From Treponema sp. (GTDB taxonomy: Bacteria > Spirochaetota > Spirochaetia > Treponematales > Treponemataceae), in contig JAAVAO010000042.1 in NCBI GenBank assembly GCA_014803985.1, positions 26,094-90,093 of the forward strand: a DNA stretch of 64,000 nt, written 5' to 3'. Under the pieces are notes generated by a model that saw only the letters and a program-made list of their open reading frames with translations, did not search any database and was not told the DNA's origin. This document shows, piece by piece, positions 974-3,800 of this stretch. Position numbers and translations under genes: made by a program. Within the stretch, counting starts at the first letter, position 1. Every line of letters begins with the position of its first letter.

Positions 974-3637
974 TTATAAATGTCCTACACGCGCTTGTGG
1001 AGAGGTGAGGTCATCAACATCCTCTTTTTCACGAGAAGTTGACTCATCATCAGAACACGGTTCAGCCGCATTATCAACCATGCTCACATCCCACGGACAA
1101 CAATCCATAAGAGAGCCGCCATTTGTCGTAATTTGGCGCACACCAATTCCTTTAGATTCCAAATCGGCCTTTGTTCTTCCAATCGTTGAAAGCGGAATAG
1201 TATACCAATAACTCATATCAAGATTTTTGCCAGAATTATGTTTGCTCGTTACTTTTGAATAGGTAGTTGACTTTAACAAATCCTCTCCTGTTTGTTTTGA
1301 AGTTCCCCTGTTATCAGTTGGAGTTGCTTCGTAATAGATATTCATTTCGCTTACAACGCATCCTCTGTTATAGCGAATCACAATTCCCGAAGTTCCCGGA
1401 GTTCCACTTCCAGTAGCCGTAACAGCAGAGTTCACGCTCATACAATGCTCTTCATCATAACTAAACCCATTTGATGAAGCCGCCTTGAAAAATCCAGGAG
1501 TTCCAACACCCACAAATTCTCCTTTATGCTGCGCAAACCCATATTTTGAAGAATGATACAAAAGATAATCAAAACCATTCGCGTCAGAAAAATTGACCCC
1601 ACCCCAAATACATTCATCTGTTCCACTTATCTTCGGACTTTTTGTAATTCCATCAGTGCTAATAATAAATCCAATAGGAAGGTCTCGATTGTCCCACCAT
1701 GCATTATCACTTCCCGCATAATCATGCGACATAAAAATATTGTCATCCGCTATGTTTGTTAATTCAACAAGCAAATAAAGATTTGTATCATCATAAGCGG
1801 CATAGAGCGCGTAAACATCATAAGGCACTTCTTGAATTCCTTTCCATGTTCTAGGGTCATCATAAGCGGCGCACTGTGCAATCTGTTCAGCACTTGTCCA
1901 ATCACTCCAATTCTTAATCGTTTTATTTGTTCCGACCATACCGTCTTTATTTGTCCAGTAATATTGACTTTGAGGAGTTGTTGATTTTTTATAACTCACA
2001 TTTACTGTATAATCGCTGCTTTTTGTTCCATTTGTGACAGTAATTTTTACAACCGTTGTACCTCCATCTTTCAATGAAACAGAAGAAGGAGTGCATACCA
2101 CTTTTGCATTAGAATCAGTTGGAGTTACACTAACAGTTGCCTTCAATTCATCACTTGAGCCTATAGCAGAAACCGTATATGTATTTCCACTCACAGAAGC
2201 AGTAGTATTTCCGATTTTTACAGTAGCAATTGAAGTGTCATTCGCCACCTTTCGCCTCACTGAAAGTGTATATTTTTTTTCGTTTCCATTTTGAGCGGTT
2301 ACAGTAATTGTAAACGTCGCGCTTTTCCCTTCTTCTATCGTTGTATTTTCTGGAGAAACACTCACCTTTGCCAAAGGATCTGTGGGGGTTGCCGTCACAT
2401 CAACACGAGAAATATTTTGATCAACCGTATAGTTTGTCGTAGACGCTCCAATTGAAACACCATTCACTTTTATATCAGAAAGACTCGTATCGCCAGAAAG
2501 TTGATTAGCCGTTGGGTCTTCATCATAAAATTTTTCACCGTCATACCAGAATGTGGCAGTTTTACCTGAAGATTTTTCAGAATCTTTATTTAATATAAAT
2601 GTGATTTCTCCTCCGCTTGGATTTGCATTAGTAAAATTCTTCATATACCAGCCTGTCGGATTAGCCATATAGATTTCTGATGCCGCCTCCATATCAGGCT
2701 GAGTCTCCCAAGTTTCATTAAGCTTTATAGAAAGTTCAACCTTTTGACTTGTAGTTTCCCATGCCCAAATCTTTGGTGCAGAAGAAGCCTTTACAAACAC
2801 AAACAACTTTCCTTTCAACGGATTTCCTATTGAATCAATCGTTGTTGTTTCTCCAGAACGCACTGTAACTGATTTTTTAGTGTTTTTTCCATCGCCGTCG
2901 GTTATTGTGTAGTTCCAAACGCCCGGCGCAACGCCTGTAATTTCGTATGTGCCGCTATCGTCAGAAGGTATCTTTTTGCTTTCAGAACACGGATCATTTA
3001 TGCAAACAACATAATCCTTTGCATTGCTTGCACCGAAAGAAACCGCTCCATAGTTTAATACATAATTATTTCCTGTTTTCAAAGTTTCAAAATCAGAAAC
3101 AATCAAATCCACATTCACAAGGTAGGCTGCTCTTCCCTCCGGAATCGCGCTAGAAATCCATGAATTTTGCGCGTCTGTAAAGTCAGCAATATTTTTTCCA
3201 GCATTTAATAATTTTTTATATACATTTGCTTTTGCACTCGTAATCCAGTTAATTGTGGACAATACATTTTCACCAGATTTTATATCCAAAACTTCTGAAA
3301 TTTCAAAACCACTCACATTTGATACTATTGAAATTATTCTGTTTTTTCCTACAGGAATGTTATTGATGGAAAATTCACCCTTCCCACTGGCAACCGAAGC
3401 AGTTCCCGTTATTTTATTCATACCAGAACTTTCCACTGTGTAAGAAACACTTTTTATCTCAGACATATCAAGCTTTCGCCCTGCATTTTCAGAGGACATC
3501 GTGATTGTAATAAAACCTGTTGCACCCCCCCCCTTATTTTCTTGAACTCCTGTATTTTTCTCATCAAGATCAGAAGAACATCCCGTCACCAAAAGAAAAA
3601 CAACAGCAACCATAATCCCTGTAAAAGTCTTTCTCAT
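974..3637 (-). CDS. Large surface lipoprotein with cadherin-like/Ig-like repeats and a C-terminal carbohydrate-binding-like region
   Basis: Start re-set to MRKTFTGIMVAVVFLLVTGCSS (lipobox VTGC) with RBS GGGAGGATGT; repeated '...VSVTPTDSNAKV...TVVKITVTNGTKSSDYTVNV' modules; poly-G tract at codons for KGGG after the lipobox. Confidence 0.8.
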   Translation of the reverse strand: MRKTFTGIMVAVVFLLVTGCSSDLDEKNTGVQENKGGGATGFITITMSSENAGRKLDMSEIKSVSYTVESSGMNKITGTASVASGKGEFSINNIPVGKNRIISIVSNVSGFEISEVLDIKSGENVLSTINWITSAKANVYKKLLNAGKNIADFTDAQNSWISSAIPEGRAAYLVNVDLIVSDFETLKTGNNYVLNYGAVSFGASNAKDYVVCINDPCSESKKIPSDDSGTYEITGVAPGVWNYTITDGDGKNTKKSVTVRSGETTTIDSIGNPLKGKLFVFVKASSAPKIWAWETTSQKVELSIKLNETWETQPDMEAASEIYMANPTGWYMKNFTNANPSGGEITFILNKDSEKSSGKTATFWYDGEKFYDEDPTANQLSGDTSLSDIKVNGVSIGASTTNYTVDQNISRVDVTATPTDPLAKVSVSPENTTIEEGKSATFTITVTAQNGNEKKYTLSVRRKVANDTSIATVKIGNTTASVSGNTYTVSAIGSSDELKATVSVTPTDSNAKVVCTPSSVSLKDGGTTVVKITVTNGTKSSDYTVNVSYKKSTTPQSQYYWTNKDGMVGTNKTIKNWSDWTSAEQIAQCAAYDDPRTWKGIQEVPYDVYALYAAYDDTNLYLLVELTNIADDNIFMSHDYAGSDNAWWDNRDLPIGFIISTDGITKSPKISGTDECIWGGVNFSDANGFDYLLYHSSKYGFAQHKGEFVGVGTPGFFKAASSNGFSYDEEHCMSVNSAVTATGSGTPGTSGIVIRYNRGCVVSEMNIYYEATPTDNRGTSKQTGEDLLKSTTYSKVTSKHNSGKNLDMSYWYTIPLSTIGRTKADLESKGIGVRQITTNGGSLMDCCPWDVSMVDNAAEPCSDDESTSREKEDVDDLTSPQARVGHL
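3525..3533 (-). repeat. Homopolymeric G(9) tract inside the lipoprotein coding sequence (in-frame state)
   Basis: + strand CCCCCCCCC; reads AAT AAG GGG GGG GGT GCA on the - strand, in frame with the lipoprotein. Confidence 0.9.
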
Positions 3638-3756
3638 ACATCCTCCCATAACAATCACTATTCATCATTGAAATTTCACCCATCGGCAAACAAACACTAT
3701 ATGTATTTTGGCTATATAGTACTATGCATAATTATAACACGGATATTTTAAATGTG

Positions 3757-3800
3757 CATTTTTTATTTTTTTTTATTTTTTTTATTTTTATTATTTTTGA
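3757..3800. repeat. Low-complexity T-rich tract upstream of the lipoprotein gene
   Basis: ttttttatttttttttattttttttatttttattattttt. Confidence 0.7.

Follow-up and report, generated by a model that had tools for sequence, protein, structure and literature searches.

It is of note that a run of nine guanines near the start of a lipoprotein gene can be read either as ordinary glycine codons or as a device that turns the protein on and off, and the locus described here raises the question of which of the two applies. The gene (974-3637, minus strand) lies in a 64,000-nucleotide stretch of DNA from a Treponema sp., hereafter the window, and encodes a lipoprotein of 887 aa. A Shine-Dalgarno sequence, GGGAGGA (3641-3647), stands 3 nt before the ATG at 3637, and the head of the protein, MRKTFTGIMVAVVFLLVTG^CSSDLDEKNTGVQENKGGGATGF, shows the n-region, the h-region and the lipobox Cys (MRKTFTGIMVAVVFLLVTG^C) of a bacterial lipoprotein, with the signal peptide at 3578-3637, the lipobox reading VTG^C and the Cys as residue 20 (codon 3578-3580). 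The plus strand carries nine C's at 3525-3533, i.e. a G9 in the minus-strand ORF, running from the third base of the Lys35 codon to the second base of the Gly38 codon (AAG GGG GGG GGT). The resulting GGG linker occupies residues 36-38, Cys +16 to +18, so that the short spacer of the original prediction stands, its figure of about 20 residues being slightly high. The assembled frame is open to 974, and the gene is thus in the ON state, as had been predicted, whereas the other two classes of tract length lead to an early stop and products of 49 or 61 residues. The tract therefore has the marks of a contingency locus, being a run of at least eight Gs in the 5' part of an ORF in which a change of length causes a frameshift. 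Only two G/C runs of at least eight occur in the window, this one and a G10 at 13159-13168. A promoter-like site upstream of the gene (3731-3758) was rejected, as such sites number at chance level.

The predicted product is a surface starch-binding lipoprotein, both its exposure and its binding being deduced from sequence. Its C-terminal part, residues 509-886 (980-2113), aligns over the full module with the CBM74 starch-binding module of Sas6 from Ruminococcus bromii (PDB 7uwv_A, E 1.7e-29; 7uwu_A, E 3e-29), a match of 378 residues. Sas6, however, serves starch adherence in a Gram-positive bacterium, whereas the protein described here belongs to a spirochaete and has its own N-terminal domain and Ig-like repeats. 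The N-terminal domain (residues ~39-280; 2798-3523, boundaries approximate) is common to a superfamily of Treponema lipoproteins with differing C-termini, which has five members in this genome and gave matches in 19 of 201 Treponema genomes. Between them, an AlphaFold model places two tandem Ig-like/cadherin-like beta-sandwich domains at residues ~380-551 (1985-2500), with pLDDT mostly 76-92, and a cadherin-like Pfam match in the ortholog L102 is in line with this region. The remainder of the model is poor (mean pLDDT of the whole protein 46.7), too poor for a structure search outside the Ig-like domains. A CBM26-like module between residues 275 and 385 was considered and rejected, PDB and Pfam giving no support.

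We consider it likely that the G9 works at the level of translation, as a simple-sequence contingency switch controlling this starch-binding lipoprotein. Slipped-strand mispairing during replication would add or remove Gs at 3525-3533; changes in multiples of three would keep the frame and leave the gene ON, and other changes would truncate the product after 49 or 61 residues and turn it OFF. The tract lies in what is probably a flexible linker joining the lipid anchor to the first folded domain; extra or missing glycines would be harmless there, and the switch would most likely toggle attachment to starch granules in single cells.

The tract also appears to be one of dozens of such switches in the genome (G000; 2.56 Mb, about 90% complete), which contains 87 tracts of at least eight Gs (loci L031-L101) and 17 of exactly seven, with the proviso that the assembly is in 56 contigs with some N's, so that any one tract length may be off by one. 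In ~520 kb around the tracts, where all runs of at least eight Gs are included and shorter runs are a sample, counts fall from 982 for G4 to 247 for G5, 38 for G6 and 5 for G7, and then rise again, with 6 for G8, 41 for G9, 33 for G10 and 5 for G11, whereas a geometric fall-off predicts ~2 runs of at least eight. Because the distribution of run lengths is bimodal, its upper mode lying at 9 and 10, the long G tracts form a separate class that is not due to chance; the claim that the polyG is no chance homopolymer is thus upheld by this distribution and by the 87 tracts.

The positions of the tracts point in the same direction. Searching the genome for heads made of lipobox, spacer and polyG, the test set beforehand by the original prediction, returned ten tracts at Cys +12 to +21, four ON (L032, which is the 974-3637 gene, L052, L065 and L070) and six OFF (L033, L034, L076, L085, L087 and L090). 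They fall into five unrelated families (L032, the beta-helix lipoproteins, L065, L070 and L090), as against ~0.2 expected by chance. The expectation rests on a lipoprotein count extrapolated from the five of the window, probably an underestimate, but doubling it leaves the excess standing. Other tracts lie within the signal peptide or lipobox (L053, L073, L084 and L099 OFF; L063, L071 and L097 ON) or deeper in lipoproteins (L054, L061 and L092 ON; L089 OFF). Altogether, 21 lipoprotein genes have a coding tract, with 10 ON and 11 OFF, as expected from sampling a reversible switch. Tracts also occur outside coding sequence. For example, at eight sites with a perfect TTGACA, a G9-11 directly adjoins the TATxxT in a spacer of 19-21, and at least four of the genes concerned encode lipoproteins (L056, L077, L078 and L100). 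Further tracts lie in Shine-Dalgarno regions (L042, L072, L080 and L082), in a type I hsdS gene (L075, two tracts), in an oxidoreductase gene (L095) and at gene ends. The phenomenon is thus wider than lipoprotein heads, extending to signal peptides, promoters, Shine-Dalgarno regions and non-lipoproteins.

An ordinary glycine linker that happens to use GGG codons, with a tract that does not switch in life, would account for an in-frame, ON tract, would be in keeping with how common Gly-rich linkers are and would fit the relatives of the gene, which do without the tract. At the codon frequencies of 19 neighbouring genes, however, the probability that K-G-G-G is spelled with at least eight Gs in a row is ~0.004; the 87 tracts, their bimodal lengths and a 3' T/TA bias mark long G-runs as a distinct class, and roughly every second coding tract in a lipoprotein reads OFF, so we regard this explanation as unlikely. 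Homopolymer lengths could also be artefacts of assembly and the apparent OFF states sequencing errors, since the assembly has N's, homopolymers are error-prone and each tract length rests on one consensus. Errors of one base aside, however, the tracts recur at functional positions such as the TTGACA-G9..11-TATxxT promoters, they recur in paralogs, and further Treponemataceae genomes have the same class of tract, among them a one-contig 1.14-Mb genome fitting T. pallidum, which makes this explanation very improbable. The switch reading is also consistent with differences in length between close copies, seen among the beta-helix genes and in the promoters of L078 and L100, which have an identical 15 nt before the tract yet carry G10 and G11, respectively; the 974-3637 gene itself is represented by one copy in these data.

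The mechanism itself is known from T. pallidum. Two reports on that organism give 24 of 46 polyG tracts of at least eight as differing in length from clone to clone (PMC10013896) and 13 of 17 tested as variable (PMC7864442). The one-contig 1.14-Mb genome (G021) has 46 tracts of at least eight Gs at coordinates matching the published ones (e.g. 49361, 150149 and 156833), suggesting that it is T. pallidum or very close. The T. pallidum loci given there (tprE/G/J, tprL and tp0126 promoters; tp0040, tp0127 and tp0969 within the gene) belong to the same family, Treponemataceae, and resemble those described here in being mostly G8-G13 and in lying between -35 and -10 or inside ORFs. Their targets are OMPs, hypothetical proteins and mcp1, whereas those in G000, from a species of gut/rumen type, include starch-binding and starch-degrading lipoproteins. 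The portions of PMC7864442 and PMC10013896 consulted describe no lipoprotein-linker tract at Cys +12 to +21. The nearest likeness is tp0257 (L130), with a polyG (+29) in its 5' end, in the lipoprotein signal peptide, as in L071, L073 and L097 of G000; the tract of the 887-aa lipoprotein is in the linker instead, and that of tp0257 is reported as minimally or not variable (PMC7864442). The porA/opc promoter tracts of Neisseria meningitidis, described in PMC7864442, are likewise slipped-strand homopolymer switches of surface genes, in an organism and proteins unrelated to Treponema lipoproteins. With 87 candidate tracts, G000 has nearly twice as many as the T. pallidum-like genome, where the same count gave 46. 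PolyG contingency genes of Campylobacter are also slipped-strand homopolymer switches of surface genes, again in an unrelated organism and unrelated proteins.

The second tract in the window, the G10 at 13159-13168 (minus strand), belongs to a beta-helix lipoprotein (10297-13288, minus strand; Beta_helix E 2.1e-16) and is out of frame in the assembly, the head starting at the ATG at 13288 and the long frame resuming at the tract. It lies 14 residues past the Cys, bearing out the statement that the two tracts sit at similar distances from the lipobox. Among the beta-helix paralogs with a linker tract, L033, L034, L076, L085 and L087 are OFF and L052 is ON, and another copy, L094, looks decayed. 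Copies with 3' flanks 83-97% identical carry G9, G10 or G11. In G000, contigs C3, C10 and C40 (first ~300 bases) and the end of C23 break at copies of this gene, and the paralog family is therefore probably larger than seen.

Two unrelated ectodomains behind one type of head had suggested a modular family of contingency lipoproteins. The contingency part of that proposal is supported by the ten heads in five families, but its shared or swapped head is not, given the tract-less orthologs and paralogs. We found no head sequence that is common to unrelated ectodomains yet absent from tract-less orthologs; only the beta-helix paralogs share a head, so that ectodomains swapped onto a common head sequence were not recovered. 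A single cassette of signal peptide, spacer and polyG recombined onto unrelated ectodomains would agree with the nearly identical head and tract of the beta-helix paralogs, a likeness that ordinary gene duplication explains, and with the motif C[ST]xxLxEK common to the 887-aa and beta-helix heads (CSSDLDEK and CTDTLPEK). However, relatives of the 887-aa protein at 44-55% identity and tract-less paralogs in G000 have the same type of head (CSNDLTDSK.., CSDSLDEREP.. and CSNTLSDSQ), which makes the motif a general feature of such lipoproteins, and none of the heads read has more than 5 Gs in a row. Moreover, the heads of L065, L070 and L090 have nothing obvious in common beyond the lipobox, and the L070 tract sits at a different place, all of which makes a cassette very improbable. 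In L070, a paralog of the 887-aa protein, the G9 is located within the domain's first beta strand (FGSLVLSNEEGGGRLL), not in a linker. Together with the tract-less relatives, in which the rest of the protein is conserved, this argues for independent gain of tracts, and the tract of the 887-aa gene appears to be a lineage-specific gain in a linker that is variable in length and sequence. Because orthologs in other species lack it, switching would not be essential to the protein.

Starch seems to be a recurrent target. Three further lipoproteins with tracts are starch enzymes, L054 being of the alpha-amylase family (PF00128, E 9e-79) and L070 and L097 pullulanase-like with CBM48 (TIGR02104, E ~1e-134, below the curated cut-off). 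Because three GH13 lipoproteins and the CBM74 protein carry tracts, starch capture looks phase-variable, and on the simplest reading of these sequences starch capture and surface debranching look to be switched independently and randomly, cell by cell. All four (L054, L070, L097 and 974-3637) are in the ON state, as they would be too if their tracts were in frame and stable. By protein, the nearest relatives come from rumen, omasum and caecum MAGs, and the habitat is thus probably the herbivore gut. Whereas phase variation mostly comes up in connection with pathogens that evade immunity, in this probably commensal gut/rumen Treponema it appears to govern the capture of food, through surface starch binding and debranching. 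From an ecological point of view, such switching would serve as bet-hedging against substrate fluctuations or as a way to escape phages, if the presumed benefit holds. We found no report in the open literature of phase-variable starch genes or of phase variation in rumen Treponema.

The least explained part of these data is a signature on the 3' side of the tracts. TA directly follows 68 of the 87 runs of at least eight Gs (78%; 63 of 80 with the beta-helix copies collapsed) as against 4.9% of short runs (G2-G5), and it follows about 80% of G9-G11 regardless of place, be it promoter, signal peptide, linker or gene end. Among G7 runs, T comes next in 1 of 17. In the mirror-image control, AT precedes 19 of the 87 long tracts, and for G3-G6 runs AT before (510) exceeds TA after (206). 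A count over the 43 genomes of the family listed as 99% complete gives 421 occurrences of GGGGGGGGTA and 99 of ATGGGGGGGG; 37 genomes favour the former and none the latter. The tract at 3525-3533 is an exception, being followed by TG. Length also varies with the preceding base, A going mostly with G9 and T mostly with G10 (26:8 vs 11:18, P 0.002). Several explanations of TA were rejected. A -10 box is present in the eight TATxxT promoters and L074 only, the sixth base elsewhere being T at about background; stop codons in the OFF frames would require an enrichment of A/G at the third base, which is lacking; and TA does not account for slipperiness, since in the published T. pallidum data available several variable tracts are without TA and three of four non-variable tracts are simply G8. 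As to insertion of polyG at TA, comparison of FtsW (L068) with 19 relatives placed the tract beyond the conserved C-terminus, in unalignable DNA. That long tracts in Treponemataceae are a discrete G9-10-TA element made or kept by a specific process is a tentative and rather doubtful proposal; if true, a mutational or protein-directed mechanism making or holding tracts 5' of TA would be new. Its 87 tracts make G000 well suited to the question of why tracts in Treponema are 9-10 long with a 3' TA.

Several individual tracts deserve mention. In L074 (G000:C21:25500-31500, minus strand, tract near 3020), a promoter of the form TTGACA-8nt-G9-CA-TATAAT with a spacer of 19 stands upstream of Cas12a (TIGR04330, E 5e-83, just under the curated cut-off on the part fetched), a CRISPR effector that may possibly be phase-variable. 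The type I hsdS gene (L075:2420-4189, plus strand) comprises three Methylase_S stretches, with two G tracts in frame, and slippage would leave one or two target-recognition units. In the lipoprotein paralogs L053, L084 and L099, all OFF, the tract lies between the n- and h-regions of the signal peptide (3080, reverse strand), and in a transglutaminase-like lipoprotein (L063:2972-4426, plus strand) a G9 encodes the residues immediately before the lipobox Cys (FCFIGGG^C). A G8 at ~2987 of L082 (plus strand) is a few nt upstream of a dnaX-like start, in the Shine-Dalgarno position. In L057 (G000:C12:80500-88000), three ORFs in succession each carry a G10 at the 3' end, and at least two of these tracts are near the next start codon. 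Finally, an intergenic repeat family of ~200 bp (L068:3116-3318, L067 and G000:C40:97330-97926) carries a G8-G9 tract in some copies only.
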